A program made the translations under genes and the position numbers. Positions 22,089 through 60,413 of a stretch of 64,000 nt of DNA are shown here, in pieces (the first letter of the stretch is position 1; every line of letters begins with the position of its first letter). The stretch is taken from the IMG/VR virus record IMGVR_UViG_3300035698_026680, positions 38,500 through 102,499 of that record; one strand, given 5' to 3'. A model generated the notes under the pieces. The model saw only the letters and a list, made by a program, of their open reading frames with translations, ran no database searches and had not been told where the DNA came from. The DNA is from a virus.

Positions 22089-22421
22089 ATGGGCAAAGCA
22101 TGGAAAGATTTAGAAAGAACTGCCGCTAAAATTCTTGGTGGCAAAAGAATAATCAGAGAACATTTTGGCGTTAAAAAGCCGGATGTAAAACTAAAAGACT
22201 TCCCTAACTTCAAGATTGATACTAAACGCTATAAAAAGTTTAGAGTTTTTTCTTTATACGAAGAAGTCAAAAAGAGATATTGCAAAAAGCCTGTAGATCA
22301 GGTTATTCTTGTTTTAAGACAACACAATAAACAAACCAAATTAGCAGTCATAGACTTAAATCTATTGGCAAAGCTTATTAATTTTGTAAGAGAAAAGGAA
22401 GGTCAAAATGGTTTTCGTTAA
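22089..22421 (+). CDS. Putative PD-(D/E)XK endonuclease, 110 aa
   Basis: Glu9 in an N-terminal helix, LGGKR, an Asp near 32 and FKIDTKRYKKF (D-x-K) near 42-52 match the layout of Hjc-like small endonucleases. It heads the que gene cluster and overlaps queD by 14 nt, so it is expressed with the DNA-modification genes; a resolvase role is the default guess. Confidence 0.6.
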   Translation: MGKAWKDLERTAAKILGGKRIIREHFGVKKPDVKLKDFPNFKIDTKRYKKFRVFSLYEEVKKRYCKKPVDQVILVLRQHNKQTKLAVIDLNLLAKLINFVREKEGQNGFR

Positions 22422-22908
22422 AAATTTACTTTCTAGATTTCGAAAGGATAAAATGAGAGATAAAAGATATTTCTTAAATGCGGAAATAAAGTTTGATTCC
22501 GCTCATCGTTTGTCTAATTATAAGGGAAAATGTAGCAATCTTCATGGTCATACTTACCGGGTCATAATCACTGTTAGTTCAAACAAATTGAATAATTGGG
22601 GAGCCGTAATGGATTTTGGTAAATTAAAGCATCTTCTAAAAGAGAAGGTTGATGAAAAATACGACCATAAAACGATTCTCTATATCGGAGATAAAGAAAA
22701 CCAAGTTATTGGCAATGTCTTAACAGAAGATGCTATTGCTTGGATGAACAGCAATCCAACTGCCGAAAATATGGCAAGAGAGATTTTTCAAGACTTAGTT
22801 CCAAGCATAAAGGCAGAAAGAAAAAATATTAAATTAGAAGTAGTGGCAGTTTACGAAACAGAGACAAATGTTGCCCGCTATTCAGAAGACTATGAAAAAA
22901 ACAAATAA
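22408..22908 (+). CDS. queD: 6-carboxytetrahydropterin synthase QueD
   Basis: 166 aa. Converts dihydroneopterin triphosphate to 6-carboxy-tetrahydropterin in the preQ0 pathway. Zinc ligands: His33 in FDSAHRL and His46, His48 in CSNLHGH; catalytic Cys42. A later YDHK carries the Asp-His pair. The start with GGAAGG 5 nt upstream is used; an internal ATG at 22453 would remove 15 residues that are not part of the family core. Confidence 0.9.
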   Translation: MVFVKNLLSRFRKDKMRDKRYFLNAEIKFDSAHRLSNYKGKCSNLHGHTYRVIITVSSNKLNNWGAVMDFGKLKHLLKEKVDEKYDHKTILYIGDKENQVIGNVLTEDAIAWMNSNPTAENMAREIFQDLVPSIKAERKNIKLEVVAVYETETNVARYSEDYEKNK

Positions 22909-23599
22909 AAAACTTCTAGTAAGTAAAGATGGTGTTTTCTTCTCTTTACAAGGAGAAGGCCCGACAATGGGAAAGCCCGCTATTTTTTTGAGACTTCAAT
23001 TATGCAATCTTCATTGTGCATGGTGCGATACTAAACACACCTGGAATTCGCAAGATGGCGAGTCTTGGAGTATCACTAAAACAGTAATAAAGCTAGGCAG
23101 ATACATGGATAGCGAGCGCTATCGTTATCAGCGTATTGTTATTACAGGCGGCGAGCCACTTCTTCAATCAGATGCGATAGATGAGCTTTTAGGCCAATTT
23201 TGCTATCCACATAGAGTAGAGATTGAAACAAACGGAACAATTAGTCCAAGTCAGGCGATGATTAGTGATGGAGTTAGATTTAATGTTTCTCCAAAATTAG
23301 AAAATTCTGGCAACCTAAAGGAATCAAGATACGCACCTGCAATTCTTCAAGTATTTAATGAAGTGAAAAAGACGAGTTTTAAATTTGTTGTTACTGGACC
23401 AAAAGACATTGCTGAAATTGAAAGAATAGTTAGAGAATGCGATTTGGATTCTGAAAAGATTATTTTAATGCCCGAAGGCAGAAGCCAAGAAGCCATTTCT
23501 AAGCATGGAAAAGCAGTCGCTGAAATATGCAAAGAAAAAGGCTGGCAGTTAATTCCGAGATTACAAGTTATGCTTTGGGGAGACGAAAGGAAAAAATGA
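22892..23599 (+). CDS. queE: 7-carboxy-7-deazaguanine synthase QueE (radical SAM)
   Basis: 235 aa. Rearranges carboxytetrahydropterin to 7-carboxy-7-deazaguanine. The Fe-S ligands are Cys38, Cys42 and Cys45 (CNLHCAWC), with SLQGEGPTMGKP at 18-29 and an ITGGEP SAM-binding motif near 88. It overlaps queD by 17 nt and the next gene by 4 nt. Confidence 0.92.
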   Translation: MKKTNKKLLVSKDGVFFSLQGEGPTMGKPAIFLRLQLCNLHCAWCDTKHTWNSQDGESWSITKTVIKLGRYMDSERYRYQRIVITGGEPLLQSDAIDELLGQFCYPHRVEIETNGTISPSQAMISDGVRFNVSPKLENSGNLKESRYAPAILQVFNEVKKTSFKFVVTGPKDIAEIERIVRECDLDSEKIILMPEGRSQEAISKHGKAVAEICKEKGWQLIPRLQVMLWGDERKK

Positions 23600-24426
23600 A
23601 AAGAGCAATAGCAGTAATTGGATATACAGGTATGGTTGGCAACCCTACTTATAGATGGTTGCATAAGCAAGGACACGAAGTAATGGGAATGGCTCTTGAA
23701 AGCAAAACGCATAGTTGGGACGAGATTAATGCTCGTGCTGAATACATTATTGTCGCAGTCCCGACTCCTTTTGATTGGAAAACAAAAAAATATAAATTAG
23801 ATATTCTTGAAGAAGTTTTGGAAAAGATAGGCAAAAACAAGAAGGTAATTATTAAGTCAACTATTGTACCAGGAACAACCGACAGACTTCAGGCGAAATA
23901 CCCAGAAATGTTCCTTTTCTTTAACCCAGAGTTTTTAAGTGTAAAAACTGCATGGGAAGACTTTGTTAATCCCGATAGACAGATAATTGGACACACACAA
24001 AAGAGTTATAAATACGCCCAAGATGCTTTAAGTCTACTACCCCAAAGTCCATTTGATGTAATTATGAGAGCTAGTGAAGCTGAAATTTGTAAGTATGTCA
24101 ATAATTTCCACGGAGCATTAATGGTAATGTTTACTAATTTATTCTACGATATTTCTCAAAAAATTGGAGCACAATATGAAATGGTTAAAAAAGGAAGCCT
24201 TGCTTCTAAATGGGTAGGATCACCAATGGGAAGAATGTATTGGGACGTGTTTCACAAAGGCAAAAGGGGCTATGGGGGTGGATGTTTCCCTAAAGATATT
24301 AACAGTCTAATTCAGTGGTGTAAAGAAAACAAAATTGATGCTGAAATTCTTGAAGCCACTAAAAAAGCCAATATGCGTATATTAAAAACTCAGGGCTTGA
24401 CTGAAGAAGCCGCGGAGAAAAAATGA
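23596..24426 (+). CDS. UDP-sugar dehydrogenase-like protein, short form
   Basis: 276 aa; start set by the ATGA overlap with queE. N-terminal Rossmann fold (GYTGMVG at 9-15, VAVPTPF), IIKSTIVPGTT, a FNPEFL segment and the catalytic Cys230 in GGGCFPKD mark the UDP-glucose/UDP-ManNAc 6-dehydrogenase family. Typical members have about 400 residues: the C-terminal UDP-binding domain is missing here. It could act as an oxidoreductase on a nucleotide sugar for the glycan genes, or have been reshaped for another substrate within the que operon. Confidence 0.75.
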   Translation: MKRAIAVIGYTGMVGNPTYRWLHKQGHEVMGMALESKTHSWDEINARAEYIIVAVPTPFDWKTKKYKLDILEEVLEKIGKNKKVIIKSTIVPGTTDRLQAKYPEMFLFFNPEFLSVKTAWEDFVNPDRQIIGHTQKSYKYAQDALSLLPQSPFDVIMRASEAEICKYVNNFHGALMVMFTNLFYDISQKIGAQYEMVKKGSLASKWVGSPMGRMYWDVFHKGKRGYGGGCFPKDINSLIQWCKENKIDAEILEATKKANMRILKTQGLTEEAAEKK

Positions 24427-24575
24427 AAGAACTATTTTTATCAACTTTAACAGGAAGTGTTTGCGGATTTATTTTTAGCAAACTAGGACTTCCTATTCCT
24501 GCCCCTGGCGTATTAGCAGGGATCATGGGAATTATAGGAATCTTTCTAGGTTATAAACTTGCAGGATTAATATGA
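24423..24575 (+). CDS. XapX-domain small membrane protein, 50 aa
   Basis: Two hydrophobic spans flank LGLPIPAPGVLAG, the signature of the XapX domain. It overlaps its neighbours on both sides by 4 nt (ATGA). The domain has no established function; why it sits between que genes is unclear. Confidence 0.7.
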   Translation: MKELFLSTLTGSVCGFIFSKLGLPIPAPGVLAGIMGIIGIFLGYKLAGLI

Positions 24576-25240
24576 AAACCAAAAAAACAATTTTAGTTAT
24601 GTCGGGCGGAATTGATTCTTCAACTCTTGCCTATTACCTAAAAGACAAGGGACATGAAGTTAAAGCCCTAACTTTTAACTATGGCCAAAAACATGATAAT
24701 GAAATAGATGCTGCGGCTAAAATTTGCGTAGAAGCAGAAATTCCCTGGAAACTCGTTGATATTTCTGCGGTGAAATATCTTCTTGATTCAGCTTTAACCA
24801 ACGATAAAAGAAAAATTCCCGAAGGCCATTATGCTGATAAAAACATGGAATCAACGGTTGTTCCAAACAGAAATATGATTATGCTATCAATCGCTGCGGG
24901 CTATGCCAAGTCGATTGGGTTTGATTATATTGCTTTTGCTGCTCATGGTGGTGACCATTTTATCTATCCTGATTGTCGCCCTGGATTTGTTGATATACTT
25001 ACTGCCGCCATTAGGTCTGCTTTTGGACACTCAGACGATGCCCCTAAATTAATCGCTCCCTTTGTCGATTTCGACAAAACAGATATTGTTAGAATGGGCC
25101 ACATGTTAAAAGTCCCTTTTAAAATTACTTGGTCTTGTTATAAAGGAAGGGTAAAGCACTGCGGCAAATGTGGGACTTGCGTTGAGCGCAAAGAAGCGTT
25201 CAAGCTCGCTAAAGTGTCTGATCCAACAAAATATGAATAA
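24572..25240 (+). CDS. queC: 7-cyano-7-deazaguanine synthase QueC
   Basis: 222 aa. ATP-dependent conversion of 7-carboxy-7-deazaguanine to preQ0 with ammonia. PP-loop SGGIDSS at 11-17, VVPNRNM, AAHGGDH and the zinc ligands Cys189, Cys197, Cys200, Cys203 are all present. It is a stand-alone QueC with no fused glutamine amidotransferase. Confidence 0.94.
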   Translation: MKTKKTILVMSGGIDSSTLAYYLKDKGHEVKALTFNYGQKHDNEIDAAAKICVEAEIPWKLVDISAVKYLLDSALTNDKRKIPEGHYADKNMESTVVPNRNMIMLSIAAGYAKSIGFDYIAFAAHGGDHFIYPDCRPGFVDILTAAIRSAFGHSDDAPKLIAPFVDFDKTDIVRMGHMLKVPFKITWSCYKGRVKHCGKCGTCVERKEAFKLAKVSDPTKYE

Positions 25241-25270
25241 ATATTACTATCCATGGGAGATTAACGAAAA

Positions 25271-25882
25271 ATGAGCTTACAAAGCGGATCAACCAAACCA
25301 TCTAAAAACAAAATTAATAGCGTAAAGCTTTTTAAAGCGGCAGAGATGCTTCTAGATGCAATAGAAGGGCCAAACAGGAGAGAAGGAACGGAAAGAACAC
25401 CAGAAAGAATAGCCCGTGATTGGCCAGAGATTTTTGAAGGCTATAATTACAAAGCAAAAGATGTTCTTAATAGGACATTTCAGGCAGAGCGCTATGATGA
25501 AATGATTATCGTGAGTACTGATTTTACTAGCACTTGCGAACACCATATATTGCCATTTAAAGGTAAAGCCTGGATAGGCTATATTCCCAAAAAGAAGATC
25601 GTAGGGCTAGACAAGTTGATTAAACTTGTTTGGATGTTCTCTAAAAGACTTCAAAATCAAGAAAGAATTACTCGCCAAGTAGCAGAATCGGTTGATAAGG
25701 TTCTAAAACCCAAAGGAGTTATGGTCGTACTAAAAGCTACGCATGACTGTGTTTCACTAAGGGGAACAAAGTCAATAAATAGCATTACGACAACTTCTGC
25801 TTGCTTCGGAGCGTTTAGAAAGAAAATCGCGGCAAGAAATGAATTTTTAAGCCTTATTAAAACAGACTTCGACAAAAAATGA
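25271..25882 (+). CDS. folE: GTP cyclohydrolase I FolE
   Basis: 203 aa. Makes 7,8-dihydroneopterin triphosphate from GTP, feeding QueD. Zinc ligands Cys89 (CEHH), His92 and Cys160 (THDC), plus GYIPKKKIVGLDK and QERITRQVAE. The gene follows a 30-nt spacer and overlaps the transglycosylase gene by 4 nt. Confidence 0.92.
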   Translation: MSLQSGSTKPSKNKINSVKLFKAAEMLLDAIEGPNRREGTERTPERIARDWPEIFEGYNYKAKDVLNRTFQAERYDEMIIVSTDFTSTCEHHILPFKGKAWIGYIPKKKIVGLDKLIKLVWMFSKRLQNQERITRQVAESVDKVLKPKGVMVVLKATHDCVSLRGTKSINSITTTSACFGAFRKKIAARNEFLSLIKTDFDKK

Positions 25883-38199: not shown

Positions 38200-38529
38200 A
38201 TGGATATGACAATTAAAACGCCCGTCCAGATCTTTATTAATGGAAGATTCTTTTGTATCGCCAGTGAAGCTGAAATTAAGCGCAGAGATCCAAGGTTCAA
38301 AAAAAGTCTTATTCCTGACAATGTAAAATTGCAACCAGGAGAATGGACGGGAACTGTCATCAATATTAAAAGGCCGCTACGAACAAAAGAAGAAAAAGAA
38401 GCGGTAAGAAAAATATTAAAAGCAGAACCCTATGATGAATTTTATACACGAATGGTAAAGGCTAAAAGTAAACACATACCAGTCGAATTAGATGCAGTGC
38501 AATTTACTAAAGAAAGGGGAGAAAGATGA
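38200..38529 (+). CDS. Hypothetical protein, 109 aa
   Basis: TAAGGAG upstream. Mixed alpha/beta, basic. Follows the RRM gene closely and overlaps the next by 4 nt. No family recognised. Confidence 0.55.
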   Translation: MDMTIKTPVQIFINGRFFCIASEAEIKRRDPRFKKSLIPDNVKLQPGEWTGTVINIKRPLRTKEEKEAVRKILKAEPYDEFYTRMVKAKSKHIPVELDAVQFTKERGER

Positions 38530-51755: not shown

Positions 51756-52263
51756 AATGCGAATAGCCATCTTTGGGGCTATGGAACACTATAAAAGGCT
51801 TTTAAAGCCCGAGAACAAGGGCTGGAAGGTCTTAGAAGTAGGAATTGACGGTGATCCGAAGCCTGGTGGAAACTATAAATACTTTGGAATAGGGAACGAA
51901 TATAAAACCCTAGACATTCTTAAAAGAGTAAATCCTGATATAGTAGCCGACATTTGCGATACTAAACTACCAAAAGAAAAATGGGATTTGATAATTCTAA
52001 GCCAAACACTAGAGCATATTTTTGATTTCAAGGCATCAATAAAAGAGTGTTATCGTTTGTTAAAATTCAATGGATATTTGATAGTTGACTGCCCATTTTT
52101 CTATCCCTATCACGGAGTAAGGGGGGATGAAGGCTACGAAGATTACTGGCGAATATCTCATACCGCCATGAAAAGATTACTAGAAGAAGTTGGCTTCAAA
52201 CACGGAAAAGCGGCTTGCTTTAATGACATATTAACATCAGCAATGGTGAGAAAGGCAAAATGA
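51745..52263 (+). CDS. Class I SAM-dependent methyltransferase
   Basis: 172 aa. WKVLEVGIDGDPKPGG (motif I), YKTLDI, WDLIILSQTLEHIFDF, and LLKFNGYLIVDCPFFYPYHGV. The EHIxD and YPYHG segments are like those of methyltransferases in polysaccharide clusters. Overlaps paralogue B by 11 nt. Confidence 0.8.
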   Translation: MPSEMRIAIFGAMEHYKRLLKPENKGWKVLEVGIDGDPKPGGNYKYFGIGNEYKTLDILKRVNPDIVADICDTKLPKEKWDLIILSQTLEHIFDFKASIKECYRLLKFNGYLIVDCPFFYPYHGVRGDEGYEDYWRISHTAMKRLLEEVGFKHGKAACFNDILTSAMVRKAK

Positions 52264-52775
52264 AAACTTGTTTTTTAGATTTTGATGATTTTAGCGAAAA
52301 GAATAGTCGTCTAGATTGGCTTTGGCAATTAAGAGAAGCATTTCCCAATTTTAAGGTAAACCTATTTACTATTCCAGGTGATTGCAATGTAACATTTTTG
52401 AATTATATTAAAAACCTTGAATGGATTCAGCTTTGTGTTCATGGATATAACCATGAAAATAAAGAAGATGTTTCAGAAAAAGCCTTAAAAATGCTTACTT
52501 CATTTTATAGATATAAAAGGATTTACCGCGCCCCTTTTTGGCAACTATCAGACACTATGTACAAGAGACTTAAAAAGCTAAATTATAAAATAATGATCCA
52601 TCCTGACGATCCAAGAGAAGGAGTTAAGTACAACTGGAATATTAAAGACTCGCCACCGCCTTTAAAAATCCTTCACGGACATGGCCATATCCAAGATACT
52701 CAAGGAAATGGGCTAGTAGAAGCATTTGGAAATATTATGAAATTGCCGAAAGATACTAAGTTTAAATTTTTATGA
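52260..52775 (+). CDS. Polysaccharide-deacetylase-like (NodB-type) protein
   Basis: 171 aa. FLDFDDFS (Asp pair near 7-10), LCVHGYNHEN (the H-x3-H zinc motif near 60-67), RAPFW and a late LHGHGH. This is the order of motifs in carbohydrate esterase 4, which removes N-acetyl groups. It is short, so perhaps a minimal version; DUF2334 members are an alternative. Confidence 0.65.
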   Translation: MKTCFLDFDDFSEKNSRLDWLWQLREAFPNFKVNLFTIPGDCNVTFLNYIKNLEWIQLCVHGYNHENKEDVSEKALKMLTSFYRYKRIYRAPFWQLSDTMYKRLKKLNYKIMIHPDDPREGVKYNWNIKDSPPPLKILHGHGHIQDTQGNGLVEAFGNIMKLPKDTKFKFL

Positions 52776-53338
52776 AAGTACCAAAAGATTACCAGGCAAT
52801 ACAAACAAGTAGATCTTCCACAAGTCGTGGGATTAAATGGGGAAAGCGAGCCAAAGAATCCGTAGATAGATATCTAAGTCTTTTTAAAGGCAAGATACTA
52901 GAAGTAGGCTGTAATGATGGTCTTGCTATGGAGCATATGCAAGGATATAGACTTGAAGTAGAAGGAATAGACATTGCTAAACATAAATTAGAAATTGCCA
53001 AAAAGCATGGTCTTAAAGTCCAATTCGCTTATCAAGAAAAGATGCCCTTTAAAGATAAATCATTTGATACAATCTTTTCTTCCCACACACTAGAGCATAG
53101 TTACGATGCAGAACAGACCGCCAGAGAATATCAACGAGTAGCCAAAAGAGCAATTATCATTGTTCCCATTGAGCCAAAGACAGCTTCGCCCGAAGTGCAT
53201 CTAAGCTCTTTTCGCTCAGGAAAAGATTTGATTAACCTGTTTAAAGACAAAGGGGTAATAATTTTAAAAGAAGCACGCAACGAAATTCAGCCTGAGTATG
53301 TAATTATTATTGATTTTGGAGTATCACATGCAATCTAA
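52772..53338 (+). CDS. Class I SAM-dependent methyltransferase
   Basis: 188 aa. KILEVGCNDGLAMEHM (motif I), EGIDIAKHKLEIAKKHG, MPFKDKSFDTIFSSHTLEHSYD (motif with LEH) and IIVPIEP. Canonical Methyltransf_11 type. Overlaps both neighbours. Confidence 0.85.
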   Translation: MKVPKDYQAIQTSRSSTSRGIKWGKRAKESVDRYLSLFKGKILEVGCNDGLAMEHMQGYRLEVEGIDIAKHKLEIAKKHGLKVQFAYQEKMPFKDKSFDTIFSSHTLEHSYDAEQTAREYQRVAKRAIIIVPIEPKTASPEVHLSSFRSGKDLINLFKDKGVIILKEARNEIQPEYVIIIDFGVSHAI

Positions 53339-53543
53339 GTTCGAAAAAATAATGAAATGGATTTCGAAAAATCACGAACATCATTATAATAGTGAAAATT
53401 TTTCTATTGACTTAGAAACAGGAAATAAAAAATACAACGATGGTAAAAAATGTAAATGTATAGACGGTAATCAAGCGTATGTTAACAGTTTAAAGTTAGA
53501 AAAATTTATTAAAAAATTATATAAAAATGAAGCCAAAAATTAG
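53328..53543 (+). CDS. Hypothetical protein, 71 aa
   Basis: ATG inside the end of the methyltransferase gene. Lys/Asn-rich, with CKC near residue 42 and two His. Overlaps the next glycosyltransferase by 17 nt. Function unknown. Confidence 0.45.
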   Translation: MQSKFEKIMKWISKNHEHHYNSENFSIDLETGNKKYNDGKKCKCIDGNQAYVNSLKLEKFIKKLYKNEAKN

Positions 53544-54255
53544 TGTAATTATCGCCACTTATAATAGACCAGCTTTGCTTCAAAGAGCAATCAATAGTGT
53601 CTTGGCTCAAACATTTAAAGATTTTGAATTGATTGTCGTTGACGATCACTCAGATAAACCACCCAATTTCAAACTTCCAGATGGCGAAGATAGAGTTGTG
53701 GGGATGAGATTGCCATACAACACAGGATATTTTGTTAAGCCAAGAAACATAGGAATTATGATTGCTCGCGGAGACTATATTGCCTACTTAGACGATGACA
53801 ATGTTTATCTTCCAAACCACCTAGAAGTTCTTTATAAAGCGATTACTAAGAAAAATGCCGATATTGCTTACGGGGATAGAGTTTATAAAAGCACTAATCC
53901 CAATGAAGCGAAGTTTATGGGCAAACAAAGCTATCCCTACAATTTGAAGCAAATAAACCAAGGGAACTATATTGACACTTCAGATATTTTGCACACTATT
54001 CAAGCAATTAATGATGTCGGATTCTGGGATTTATTTTGGATCAGAAAAGCAGATTGGCTTTTAATGGTCAAGTTTGGAAAGGCAGGAATGAAGATAGTCC
54101 ATGCTCCCGAAGTAATTACCGAGTATTGGTGGCACGATGATAACATTGGACAGAAAAATCCCCTAGGTGGAGAGTTCCCACAATCAACAAAGCCATTTAG
54201 AAAACATGTAGTTAGTCTGGCAGGTGGCGTGGCTAAAGGAGATAAAAAATCATGA
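53527..54255 (+). CDS. Glycosyltransferase family 2
   Basis: 242 aa. Classical GT2: ISVIIATYNRPALLQRAINSVLAQT, FELIVVDDHSD, ARGDYIAYLDDDN with the DxD. The closest to the family consensus in this window. ATGA overlap with the next gene. Confidence 0.92.
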   Translation: MKPKISVIIATYNRPALLQRAINSVLAQTFKDFELIVVDDHSDKPPNFKLPDGEDRVVGMRLPYNTGYFVKPRNIGIMIARGDYIAYLDDDNVYLPNHLEVLYKAITKKNADIAYGDRVYKSTNPNEAKFMGKQSYPYNLKQINQGNYIDTSDILHTIQAINDVGFWDLFWIRKADWLLMVKFGKAGMKIVHAPEVITEYWWHDDNIGQKNPLGGEFPQSTKPFRKHVVSLAGGVAKGDKKS

Positions 54256-54578
54256 AACAATCAATAGCAAAAAAACAAATAGCTAAACTTCTAAACAAAA
54301 TGCCCGAAGTAAAATGGGATAGATATGTTCATTATCGAAAAACAGAATATGTTTTCTTTGGTTGGATTGATCGCGACAAAGATACATATAAAGATTTCTT
54401 TGTATTATTTATAACAACCAAAGAAGGGAAAGCAGATGCTTATACTTATGTTATATCATCAGCAAAGCTAACTAAAAAAGTTAGTCCAAGATACGGATTT
54501 CCAACCACAGAACATGAAGACTGTATTAGGGTAGAATCCTTATTTTCCAATAATGAAGTTAATACAATAAAGTTGTAA
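54252..54578 (+). CDS. Hypothetical protein, 108 aa
   Basis: Alpha/beta protein with a WIDRDKDTYKDFFVLFI strand region and a Cys near the end. It lies between two GT2 genes without recognisable motif. Confidence 0.55.
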   Translation: MKQSIAKKQIAKLLNKMPEVKWDRYVHYRKTEYVFFGWIDRDKDTYKDFFVLFITTKEGKADAYTYVISSAKLTKKVSPRYGFPTTEHEDCIRVESLFSNNEVNTIKL

Positions 54579-54580
54579 AC

Positions 54581-55261
54581 ATGAAAGTAGCTCTGTTCAC
54601 TCTAACAAAAGATAGACTGGAATATACAAAAAGAACTTTCGAAAGTCTTACAAAAAAGACTCATGTTTCTTATGACCATTTTATTTTAGATCAAAATAGC
54701 AAAGATGGCACTGTAAAATGGCTTGAGCAATTCACTCATCAATTAGGGAAATGCTATGTTTATCCGCTTACTTTGAATATTGGAATCAATCGGGGAGTGA
54801 ACTTTATTATAGAGAAAATTGGCAAAGAGTACGATATTATCGTTAAAATAGACAATGATGTCGAGATAAAAACTGATGGCTGGTTGCAGAAGTGCCTTAG
54901 TGTTTTGGATAAGAAAATGCTTATCTCTCCGTTTGTTAAGGGTTTAATAGACAATAGAGAAGGAGTGGGAAGAATCGGACTTGATAAAAAAAAGCTAGTA
55001 GGATGGACTTCTTTTATTGGCGGTATTTGTATGATAGGATTTAGAAGGGCATGGAGTGAAGATTCAGGCGGATGGGAATTTCCAGTTCCTAAGCATGCTG
55101 GCGGAGATAGATCATTTTGTAAAAAGCTTAGTCTAGTAGGGTATAGATTTGGTTACAAAGAAGATGTAGTTATTAGGCATATCGATACCACTGCTGGACA
55201 AAGAGAAAAGTATAAAGGCTATTTTTCGTTGAGAAAGCAAGAGAGAGTTAATATAATATAG
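54581..55261 (+). CDS. Glycosyltransferase family 2
   Basis: 226 aa. VALFTLTKDRLEYTKRTFESL, FILDQNSKDGTVKWL, IIVKIDNDVEI (DxD), FIGGICMIGFR, and a C-terminal KEDVVIRHIDTTAGQREKY. That last part has a second, diverged copy after the adjacent HNH gene (55735-55839). Confidence 0.85.
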   Translation: MKVALFTLTKDRLEYTKRTFESLTKKTHVSYDHFILDQNSKDGTVKWLEQFTHQLGKCYVYPLTLNIGINRGVNFIIEKIGKEYDIIVKIDNDVEIKTDGWLQKCLSVLDKKMLISPFVKGLIDNREGVGRIGLDKKKLVGWTSFIGGICMIGFRRAWSEDSGGWEFPVPKHAGGDRSFCKKLSLVGYRFGYKEDVVIRHIDTTAGQREKYKGYFSLRKQERVNII

Positions 55262-55264
55262 TTA

Positions 55265-55750
55265 GTGACTAAAAAACTTACAGAGAAGCATAAAGAAAAA
55301 ATAAGACAGGCTCATTTGGGTAAAAAGCGTCCACTGCGATCTAAAAGATGGAGTAGAAAAATTAGTAAGGCTTTAACAGGAAAAAAACGCAAACCATTTT
55401 CGAGAAAACATAGAAGAAATATAGCCAAGACACATAGGGGAGTAAAAAGTAATTTTTGGAAAGGTGGAATTACGTCTGAGCATTTAAAAATTAGAGCATC
55501 TATTGAACATCGACTTTGGCGAGAATCGGTTTTTGCTAGGGATAATTGGACTTGCCAGAAATGCTTGGAAAGGGGTGGAGAATTACATCCACATCATATT
55601 AAGAACTTTGCTCGATATCTGAAATTACGATTTGTAGTAGACAATGGAATTACTTTTTGCAAAGAAGATCATGATAAATTTCATAAAATATATGGAAAAA
55701 AGAACAATACTAAAGAGCAGGTAGAGAAATTCTTAAAGAAGATGTTATAA
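55265..55750 (+). CDS. HNH homing endonuclease with NUMOD3-like repeats
   Basis: 161 aa, GTG start 3 nt after the GT2 stop. Residues 1-60 hold three basic repeats of the NUMOD3 type (KHKEKIRQAHLGKK, RKISKALTGKK, RRNIAKTHRG) that bind DNA; residues 80-140 are an HNH nuclease (CQKCLERGGELHPHHIKN, then FCKEDHDKFH). Sits between the GT2 gene and a remnant of a similar gene, the expected trace of a mobile intronless homing element. Confidence 0.9.
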   Translation: MTKKLTEKHKEKIRQAHLGKKRPLRSKRWSRKISKALTGKKRKPFSRKHRRNIAKTHRGVKSNFWKGGITSEHLKIRASIEHRLWRESVFARDNWTCQKCLERGGELHPHHIKNFARYLKLRFVVDNGITFCKEDHDKFHKIYGKKNNTKEQVEKFLKKML

Positions 55751-55839
55751 TCAAACACATTGAGACTACGACAGGGCAACACGAGAAATATCCTGAGTAT
55801 TTTAAAAAAAGAATAGTTGAAAGGCGAAAGGTGTTTTAA
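55735..55839 (+). pseudogene. Glycosyltransferase C-terminal remnant
   Basis: 35-codon open stretch without a start, beginning inside the 3' end of the HNH gene. It encodes KEDVIIKHIETTTGQHEKY, colinear with KEDVVIRHIDTTAGQREKY at the end of the GT2 protein at 54581, and continues to a stop. DNA identity is moderate, so it is a diverged relative, not a fresh copy. Confidence 0.75.
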
Positions 55840-55998
55840 ATGACAATGCTAAAAAAATATCAATGCCAAGACTGCAAGCACAAATTTACTAGAATTCCTA
55901 GTTTAAAATTCATTAAGACGGTACTACCACCATGTCCTACTTGCAATTCGGATGACATTCAAAGTATTAGCTATATTGAAAAAAAGAAAAAGAAGTAG
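55840..55998 (+). CDS. Zinc-ribbon protein, 52 aa
   Basis: CQDCKHKF at 9-16 and CPTCNSDDI at 32-40 form a ribbon of the FmdB-like type; a Lys run ends the protein. Starts right at the stop of the remnant (TAAATG). Last gene before a strong promoter. Confidence 0.6.
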   Translation: MTMLKKYQCQDCKHKFTRIPSLKFIKTVLPPCPTCNSDDIQSISYIEKKKKK

Positions 55999-56009
55999 TA
56001 TTCTTAGAT

Positions 56010-56039
56010 TTGACAAGTAGTTGTTCTATCTAATATACT
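56010..56039 (+). promoter_or_regulatory. Strong sigma-70 promoter for protease-capsid operon
   Basis: TTGACA, 18 nt, TATACT in an intergenic region; perfect -35 and 5/6 -10. It drives the head genes at 56170-59000. Confidence 0.85.
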
Positions 56040-56085
56040 TGTTCCAGTTAAAGTTTTAGTTAAGAGTTCCAGTAAGAGTCTTGCA

Positions 56086-56104
56086 TAGATTTTCTGAAAA
56101 TCTA
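56086..56104 (+). promoter_or_regulatory. Leader hairpin, protease-capsid mRNA
   Basis: TAGATTTT-CTG-AAAATCTA, an 8-bp stem with a 3-nt loop. Related TAGATTTA and TAGATCTA words follow at about 56117 and 56137. The 130-nt leader may stabilise the mRNA or regulate it. Confidence 0.5.
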
Positions 56105-56169
56105 CATAAGTTTTGAGTAGATTTAGAAATTCTTGCGTAGATCTAGGCTCAGAAGGGAACTCTTTTTAT

Positions 56170-56472
56170 ATGTTTATTATCTATAATTGCGGATACCGAA
56201 GAGTCCTGGGCCTTCAAGGGAAGTACACTTATAAGCGGTACAAATTTGTAAAAAAGCATGTTACCGAAGTAGACGATAAAGATGGAGAAGCATTTTTGAA
56301 GATGACTTCTAAAAACATCACTTGGTGTCCTACTAATGATAAGTCACTACCGCCCTTTATGAGACTCAAAGAATGGTGTGCAGGTAAAAAGGGTCGTTTC
56401 GATTTTCAGCCTTTGAAAATATATGACCCTGAGAAGTATAAAAGTTTATTTCTTGTCAAAAAGGGGAAATGA
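56170..56472 (+). CDS. Hypothetical protein, 100 aa
   Basis: The ATG at 56170 is taken; a TTG at 56113 would extend it into the leader. Basic, mixed fold, with two Cys (TWCPTND, EWCAGKK). It may be a head-associated protein; no family recognised. SD is weak and distant. Confidence 0.5.
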   Translation: MFIIYNCGYRRVLGLQGKYTYKRYKFVKKHVTEVDDKDGEAFLKMTSKNITWCPTNDKSLPPFMRLKEWCAGKKGRFDFQPLKIYDPEKYKSLFLVKKGK

Positions 56473-56476
56473 AGTT

Positions 56477-57925
56477 ATGAAAAAAAATACCATACAAAAA
56501 TTTAGGTTTACGATCCCCATTATTAAGACAAGTGTTTTGGTAGTAAAAGACGAAAAGGGGAACGATGTAGAAGAAAGATATGTTGAAGGAATCGCTTCTG
56601 GAACAGAATTAGACAAGCATGGTGATAGAATGGCTCCTTCAGCCATTGAGTCCATGGCAAAATCTCTTAAACAGCATGTTATTGCTTTAAATAGTGAACA
56701 CGACACTTCTTGGCTGGGAGAATTGGGAGACATTGCTCACCTGGGAGTTTCTAAAGACGATGATTTGGAAATCAAAGCCAAGCTGAATGAGATGAGTTCT
56801 TCCAATGATTTATGGTATGCTCTTACAAAGCAAAATAAGAAACTCGGACTATCCATCGGTGGTTATGTAAAAGACTACGAAATGGTTAAGGAAGGCAAGG
56901 GCGAAGATGCAAAATGGGTTCGACTTTACAAAAAGATTGATTTAGACCACATTGCAGTTACTTCCCGACCAGCGTATCCAAAATCCTGGGTTTCAAATAT
57001 TGCCAAATCAATAAGCGATGATGATAAAAGTCTATTAAAGAAAGTAAAATCAAAGAAAGTAAAGAAAGGTGCAAGAACTGCACAAAAAGAAAAAGAAAGA
57101 AAATTAAGACAATTTGCGACAAGAATAGTAAGGAGTTTACAGGATATGGAAGCAGATTTGCTTCTAGAGTTAGCTTACGCAGGACTACAATTCTGTGACA
57201 AGGAACAGTTATTATTAATTGAAAGGATTCTTCCCATGAAAAAGCAAGATGTCTCACTGGAAGCTAAAAAGGCCAAGAAAAAGGCCGATGCCAAAGTCAA
57301 GTCCGAAGACGAAAAGGCTGAAAATTTAGCAGCCCCAGAGAATGAGTCATCCGAAGATGAATCTGAAGAAAAAGAAGAAGCCAAGGAAAAAGGCAAAGAA
57401 GGAAAAGAGAAATCTGATGCTTCTAAGTCTGATTCTAAGGAATCTAAAGATTCTAAAGAGAAGTCTAAAGATGAGTCGGACGATGAGAGTGAAGGTAAGG
57501 ACGAAGGCAAAAAGAATTCAGAAAAAGAAGAAGCTGATGAGTCAGACGATTCCGAGTCGGAAGACAAGGAAAAAGATGAAGAATCAGAGAAATCTTCTAA
57601 AAAATCTGAAAAGAAGGAAGGCTCTGGGAAACTTTTAAAGGCCATGAAGACTGTAGAGAAGGCCATGAAAAAGATTCTAAAAAGCAATGAGACTCTCGCC
57701 AAGAGAGTTAAAGAGCTTGAGAGTCAGCCCGCAGATCGTAAAACCATCGAAGTCCACAAGGAACTCGGTGATGATGACAACGCAAACTTCGGAAGCCCTG
57801 AAGAAGCGACAAAGAAAAGGGACAAAGAAATTGCGAAGGTAAGAAAATCTAGTGTCAACGATCCACAGCTTTTCGCTAAGATTCAAAAGGTCCGAGCCAA
57901 ATACGCTCCCTACACTAGCGAGTAA
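56477..57925 (+). CDS. Prohead protease (HK97/U35 type) fused to acidic scaffold-like tail
   Basis: 482 aa. Residues 10-185 are the protease: YVEGIASGTELDKHGDRM, His75 in NSEHDTSWLG and Ser126 in LGLSIGGY, the catalytic pair of the HK97-type family, then HIAVTSRPAYP. About 265-395 is low-complexity Lys/Glu/Asp/Ser; the last 90 residues include a coiled coil. A protease-scaffold fusion would direct capsid assembly and then self-digest. The longer in-frame start at 56423 lacks an SD. Confidence 0.88.
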   Translation: MKKNTIQKFRFTIPIIKTSVLVVKDEKGNDVEERYVEGIASGTELDKHGDRMAPSAIESMAKSLKQHVIALNSEHDTSWLGELGDIAHLGVSKDDDLEIKAKLNEMSSSNDLWYALTKQNKKLGLSIGGYVKDYEMVKEGKGEDAKWVRLYKKIDLDHIAVTSRPAYPKSWVSNIAKSISDDDKSLLKKVKSKKVKKGARTAQKEKERKLRQFATRIVRSLQDMEADLLLELAYAGLQFCDKEQLLLIERILPMKKQDVSLEAKKAKKKADAKVKSEDEKAENLAAPENESSEDESEEKEEAKEKGKEGKEKSDASKSDSKESKDSKEKSKDESDDESEGKDEGKKNSEKEEADESDDSESEDKEKDEESEKSSKKSEKKEGSGKLLKAMKTVEKAMKKILKSNETLAKRVKELESQPADRKTIEVHKELGDDDNANFGSPEEATKKRDKEIAKVRKSSVNDPQLFAKIQKVRAKYAPYTSE

Positions 57926-59885: not shown

Positions 59886-60413
59886 ATGAAGATAAAAACA
59901 ATACAATGTATTGATTGTGGTATTACTTGTGAAAGAACAGGAAGTAATCAAAAAAGATGTCCTAGATGCCGTAAAATTAATAAACTTGAAAAATATCGCA
60001 AGAAGTATCGTCAAAAAGTAAAAGAATTCTCAAAAAAAGGTCTTAATTACAATAAAGAAAATTATAAGAAAAATAAAGAAAGTATCAAAAAAAGTCTCAG
60101 ACGATATTATTTAAGAACTCGTGGACAATTAAGACTTGGAGCACTTCAAACCATCGCTGACAATAAATCAATTCAATGTGCAAAACATAAAGACTGGTGT
60201 TGTTGTGGTAATTCTTCCAATTTAGACTACCTTGAATTAGATCATATAAAAAATGATGGAGCAATTGATAGGAAAAAATTTAGCAAAGGAAATACTTTTT
60301 ATAGATGGATAATAGATAATCCTGAAAAGGCACGAAAAAAACTACAGATATTATGTTCAAACGCTCAATGGATCAAAAGACGGATCCAGGAAGCTAGAAA
60401 GAGAAAGGAATAA
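59886..60413 (+). CDS. HNH homing endonuclease
   Basis: 175 aa. N-terminal Cys4 finger (CIDCGITC, CPRCRK), a Lys-rich middle, then LELDHIKNDGAIDRK and LQILCSNAQWIK, the LDHI...H/R...LCxNxxxxK arrangement of phage HNH homing enzymes (the usual NCN is NAQ). Overlaps the next gene by 1 nt. The third such element lies at 63159. Confidence 0.82.
   Translation: MKIKTIQCIDCGITCERTGSNQKRCPRCRKINKLEKYRKKYRQKVKEFSKKGLNYNKENYKKNKESIKKSLRRYYLRTRGQLRLGALQTIADNKSIQCAKHKDWCCCGNSSNLDYLELDHIKNDGAIDRKKFSKGNTFYRWIIDNPEKARKKLQILCSNAQWIKRRIQEARKRKE

Follow-up and report, generated by a model that had tools for sequence, protein, structure and literature searches.

Fungal mitochondrial mORFs, described in atp6 of Allomyces macrogynus and in atp6, atp9, cox2 and nad3 of Glomus sp. 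(PMC3630166), are the closest known system to the element analysed here. In mORFs, a gene body is followed by an in-phase foreign C-terminal end, an endonuclease ORF and the stranded native C-terminal end of the same gene; the inserted and native ends encode nearly the same protein from diverged DNA, and it is the native end that groups with close relatives (PMC3630166). The same order was found in the window, by which I mean the whole stretch of 64,000 nucleotides under analysis (positions 38,500 to 102,499 of IMG/VR virus record IMGVR_UViG_3300035698_026680): an in-phase inserted end of a GT2 glycosyltransferase gene precedes a nuclease ORF, and the native end lies stranded behind it. However, mORFs reside in mitochondrial DNA and carry LAGLIDADG or GIY-YIG nucleases (PMC3630166), whereas the elements reported here reside in phage DNA and mostly carry nucleases of the NUMOD3-HNH type, and for this reason the window element is not classed as a member of the mORFs, but only as working alike. 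The phage cassettes further differ in that a putative -10 promoter marks the start of the nuclease gene and that they occur at gene heads as well as tails. The Allomyces element was demonstrated biochemically to be mobile (PMC3630166); for the phage cassettes, mobility is a prediction from sequence.

Among phages, the seg and mob genes of T4 encode free-standing homing endonucleases, which resemble the window element in being stand-alone nuclease genes beside a presumed target, in their sporadic presence and in the co-conversion of flanking markers (PMC2988022). Gene-splitting insertions (mobE, mobA) are covered in the T4 review, in which no word begins with 'duplicat', whereas here the carried end keeps the target whole (PMC2988022). 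The ShiLan insertion, an HNH gene within the DNA methylase gene of an actinophage with neither intron nor intein, may be a related case: over its first 11 residues, the insert is similar to the 11 residues that follow the insertion site, with less similarity in DNA (66-68%), but unlike in the window, the methylase frame continues through the insert without a stop, and the repeat was weighed by its authors as a possible intron signature and not as a carried gene segment (PMC11855218). In the synthetic gene drive HomeR (home-and-rescue), a cut target is likewise combined with a working replacement, but the likeness is one of logic only; HomeR is engineered Cas9 in Drosophila and unrelated by descent (PMC7968924). 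Introns, inteins, split proteins or intergenic sites are the usual explanations of how homing genes enter coding sequence without harm to their target. A substitute end of the target gene that travels with the nuclease gene would be another solution, described in fungal mitochondria and found here in phages and at both gene ends. The literature searched yielded no account of carried gene ends in phages, which is not proof that none exists.

An earlier, sequence-only reading of the locus had proposed a row of an intact GT2 gene, an HNH gene and an orphan GT2 tail, and this row was confirmed at 54581-55261, 55265-55750 and 55735-55839, all on the + strand. The intact GT2 gene (226 aa; PF00535, E 9.4e-12) comprises the body and a substitute tail of 34 codons plus stop (55157-55261), and its protein ends in GYRFGYKEDVVIRHIDTTAGQREKYKGYFSLRKQERVNII. 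The HNH gene runs from a GTG start at 55265 to a TAA ending at 55750 and encodes 161 aa. The stranded tail, KEDVIIKHIETTTGQHEKYPEYFKKRIVERRKVF followed by a stop, also has 34 codons but no start of its own, and is read in a different frame from the HNH gene, whose 3' end it overlaps by 16 nt; the orphan frame thus opens inside the last HNH codons, as had been noticed before. Both tails start within a common 11-mer, AAAGAAGATGT, which forms a direct repeat on the + strand with its left copy at the junction of GT2 body and insertion (55157-55167) and its right copy where the HNH end meets the native tail (55735-55745). The two copies are 578 bp apart, and the net insertion between them, at about codon 193 of GT2, is likewise 578 bp, made up of the substitute tail, a 3-nt spacer and the HNH gene. 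The substitute and orphan tails are identical at 19 of 34 residues, and their local score of 104-106 lies far above the 99.9% quantile of 46-50 in a null of mismatched loci.

By homology, the window HNH is a member of the NUMOD3-HNH family of free-standing homing-type nucleases. The HNH profile PF01844 reached 20.4 bits on this protein, just below the Pfam cut-off of 21.4, and one of the four zinc-ligand cysteines is absent (FCKED-H, not FCxxCH); homologues at 44-58% identity (e.g. L024) scored above the cut-offs for both HNH and NUMOD3. Its free-standing status is seen in its own reading frame, flanked by two GT2 ends, and it is present as a single copy in the virus record. A promoter-like element, TTGAGA and TATAAT with a 17-nt spacer, lies on the + strand within the codons of the substitute tail (55229-55257) and ends 7 nt before the GTG of the HNH gene. 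An exact TATAAT 5-9 nt 5' of the start codon was found at 13 of the 105 HNH loci surveyed below, against 0.93 expected. On the strength of these two observations, the cassette probably supplies its own promoter and gives rise to a leaderless HNH mRNA.

Two scans of viral contigs yielded 20 loci with the same GT2, 17 of them distinct, at 58-73% identity; in protein, the relatives reach at most 74%, which is too distant for mapping the left end of a copied tract. All 17 distinct relatives are HNH-less and carry a single-copy GT2 with one tail, and a zinc-ribbon gene starts between -1 and +13 nt from the GT2 stop; a second GT2 copy, a second tail or an intervening HNH gene was found in none of them (0/17). 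The possibility raised with the sequence-only reading, that relatives without the HNH gene also show both tails, was therefore not borne out: their single tail abuts the zinc-ribbon gene. In the window, this zinc-ribbon gene (55840-55998, + strand, 52 aa), used as the reference point for the uninterrupted allele, begins right after the stranded tail. As the sole tail of the relatives abuts this same gene, the native end has kept its original place as the stranded tail, and the insertion consists of the substitute tail plus the HNH gene. The presence of the HNH gene is sporadic, with the GT2 site empty in the 17 distinct relatives and a similar contrast between Bacillus phage Goe17 and its sister phages. 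A search of isolated phages with the GT2 protein gave no match, and no second genome was found to carry the identical insertion of GT2 tail and this HNH gene.

The orphan tail resembles the native tails of the relatives, with up to 29 of 34 residues identical (best L011), while the substitute tail differs from it and represents a second natural tail type, matched best by L075 (24/34). Both types occur among the relatives, but a length of 34 residues does not suffice for a tree that would place the orphan with L011 and the inserted tail with L075. On a tree of GT2 bodies, the carriers of the substitute type do not form a clade, so that tails seem to recombine independently of bodies.

The locus is very probably explained by a free-standing HNH homing gene that entered GT2 along with a divergent replacement for the end of that gene, the insert having the order of diverged GT2 tail with stop, then HNH gene with its putative own promoter. 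In the proposed mechanism, an HNH-less GT2 would be cut or nicked by the HNH enzyme near the AAAGAAGATGT / KEDV site, and the donor would be copied in repair, with the GT2 body serving as left homology and the tract bringing in a tail by which a good C-terminus is still encoded. This substitute tail would presumably not be cut, as its DNA differs. The right end of the tract would be the last conserved codons of the HNH gene, joined to the recipient tail, which would be stranded in this way and could be available as the right homology arm for further homing. The break position would correspond to the stranded-end junction, and co-conversion would be partial. Insertion would be cheap for the virus because the target gene remains intact.

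The isolate Goe17 enabled a comparison of such a locus with closely related phages. Its HNH protein (355 aa) belongs to the same family as the window HNH, with 39.5% identity over 94% of the query. The HNH gene is preceded by 8 codons from the start of an M23 peptidase gene, letter-identical to those of the HNH-less phages Goe3 and Goe27, and is followed by a complete M23 gene. Over its initial ~52 codons, this complete gene shares only 48-68% DNA identity with Goe3, Goe27 and Goe20, against 88-100% past this point. Between Goe20 and Goe3, identity is 86-100% throughout. The foreign tract in Goe17 ends well before the end of the M23 gene. Judged from these alignments, Goe17 offers an insertion whose conversion tract can be mapped and lies on one side only, with a gene end left stranded on the other, and the grouping described for mORFs is clear in this head case: the stranded end is like that of the sister phages, and the carried end is foreign. 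Since Goe17 and its sisters are phages of B. subtilis, the model is directly testable there. As a contrast, a NUMOD4-HNH gene on the other strand of Goe25 merely truncates the tail of the same M23 gene. Altogether, three different HNH-type genes were observed at or beside the M23 gene in Bacillus phages, at its head in Goe17 (L158), at its tail on the other strand in Goe25 (L174), and upstream on the other strand in BSP10 (L177).

Recurrence was surveyed at 105 distinct, though not independent, loci with HNH genes of the window family, which were tested for a gene end before the HNH gene that is repeated right after it (tails), or for a stranded head before the HNH gene (heads). Tails with a score of at least 30 were observed 6 times against 0.05 expected from 8,000 mismatched pairs, and at a threshold of at least 18, 11 times against 2.1 expected from mismatched pairs. 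Heads with a score of at least 28 were found at 2 of the 105 loci against 0.3 expected, with L024 added by an unanchored test. Compared with 599 neighbouring non-HNH ORFs, a stranded-end score of at least 40 was reached in 6.7% versus 1.5% (p 0.005). About 85-90% of the HNH loci showed no recognisable stranded end. Tail cases recognised by eye were L022, L108, L048 and L037, where VPINNF, KEGIRQ, VLTIA and RFVN, respectively, precede the stop, as well as L043, L023 and L104; in the first four, the duplicated end is just 4-6 codons long, and each is weak taken singly. L024, L122, L075 and L007 were recognised by eye as head cases. A scan of genome contigs gave ten loci with one clear head case (L148), and a clear stranded end was absent at the HNH loci of other isolated phages (Lietuvens, Staley, 6ec, Goe7, Goe8 and others).

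The control ORFs themselves pointed to further nucleases, as two of the eight best were homing endonucleases, or resembled them, with the same layout. At L011:2805-3326, a free-standing LAGLIDADG gene is flanked by two copies of the tail of a gene, NILKLSVDTEFRFL and NIIKLPKNTEFKFL, each with its stop, and this tail belongs to the family of the window gene at 52260-52775. In L075, a zinc-finger gene forms a single reading frame with the stranded tail of the adjacent upstream glycosyltransferase; the zinc-finger gene has no Pfam match and is termed HNH-like by eye, from its resemblance to the second HNH of the window. Two consecutive cassettes occupy L075:3675-5004. The first lies at the tail of one glycosyltransferase and the second at the head of the glycosyltransferase that follows, which corresponds to GT2 of the window and has a NUMOD3-HNH gene between a stranded and a substitute head. 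At L015:1714-3489, an intein with a LAGLIDADG-type domain was observed in the same GT2 gene, between FIGGI and CMIG (PF14890, E 2e-14). Taking the L015 intein, the L075 head and the window tail together, one glycosyltransferase gene has been struck by homing-type elements at three places.

A rather unlikely alternative is wide co-conversion, in which the whole or most of the donor's GT2 replaced the resident body along with the HNH gene, and the substitute tail would simply mark where a long tract ended, without being a regular companion of the nuclease gene; tract length is the sole difference from the insertion of a carried end. The locus is indeed a mosaic by sliding-window identity, with L075 and L011 nearest for the upstream glycosyltransferase, L006, L076 and L077 for the initial part of the GT2 body, and L075 for the protease, and the Goe17 tract does reach ~52 codons past the HNH gene. 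Yet this same tract stops well short of the gene end, and the duplicated ends of L022, L108, L048 and L037 span only 4-6 codons. A single clade of the window body and the carriers of its tail type was also rejected (AU p 0.0075), with the limit that these carriers are themselves not a clade. The sequence-only reading had suggested homing with co-conversion that replaced the original gene body and left its tail, and this idea was right in kind: a homing-type insertion leaving the native tail agrees with the HNH-less relatives, with the Goe17 tract as an analogue. Replacement of the whole body may or may not have taken place: in the window, the one part that clearly differs in type from the orphan is the substitute tail, and the GT2 body is nearest L076 and L002, then L075, which are relatives of both tail types.

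It is highly improbable that the HNH gene landed between two tandem copies of GT2, the second of which then lost its body. The region is rich in glycosyltransferase genes, so that the sequence-only reading's word 'array' fits loosely, but a tandem second copy of this GT2 was present in no relative, the junction falls exactly at the common 11-mer, and the same layout is found at unrelated single-copy genes such as that of the M23 peptidase, where the uninterrupted allele is known. Tandem decay was rejected on the missing second copy. Still less probable is an assembly chimera of two GT2 alleles, conceivable for a metagenome virus record but rejected here, as many independent contigs share the layout, and so does an isolated phage genome. 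Least probable is a group I intron, a frequent home of phage HNH homing endonucleases, whose splicing would join the GT2 body to the downstream tail and make the two tails alternative 3' ends and the HNH gene an intron ORF: no Rfam match up to E 1 was found in 53000-57000, and the 578-bp insert of tail, 3 nt and HNH gene has no non-coding room for a ribozyme core, so this was rejected too.

Returning to the insertion of a carried end, all residues are the same and all codons different between the duplicated ends in both L048 and L037. Across duplicated ends, codons were identical at 37 of 99 conserved residues, against a median of 52% (range 37-77%) between GT2 homologues; the binomial p of 0.003 at the median has to be read with a baseline from a different gene and hand-picked cases. 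These counts are no more than suggestive of selection for recoding of carried ends. The substitute end may be under selection to resist cutting, or may simply be an allele from a different lineage. As a tentative proposal, which I consider possible rather than probable, end-replacing homing cassettes may form a general natural 'home-and-rescue' class in phages, spanning several unrelated nuclease families and both gene ends, with carried ends synonymously recoded under selection to escape their own nuclease while the protein is kept. Carried ends would account for the odd gene-end fragments beside HNH genes, and a stranded end, in marking the break, would indicate the target site of each nuclease. 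The model also predicts foreign tracts adjoining such nuclease genes.

A second HNH-like gene lies at 59886-60413 of the window, directly before a glycosyltransferase gene and without a Pfam HNH match; no stranded gene end was seen around it. Over 34331-62582, genes of glycosyltransferase, methyltransferase and epimerase-like type form a long series, beside and among the genes for the prohead protease (56423) and the major capsid protein (57981, SU10_MCP). At 22408-25882, genes resembling QueD, QueE, QueC and FolE by eye, i.e. those of the 7-deazaguanine pathway, would suggest that the phage DNA is modified.
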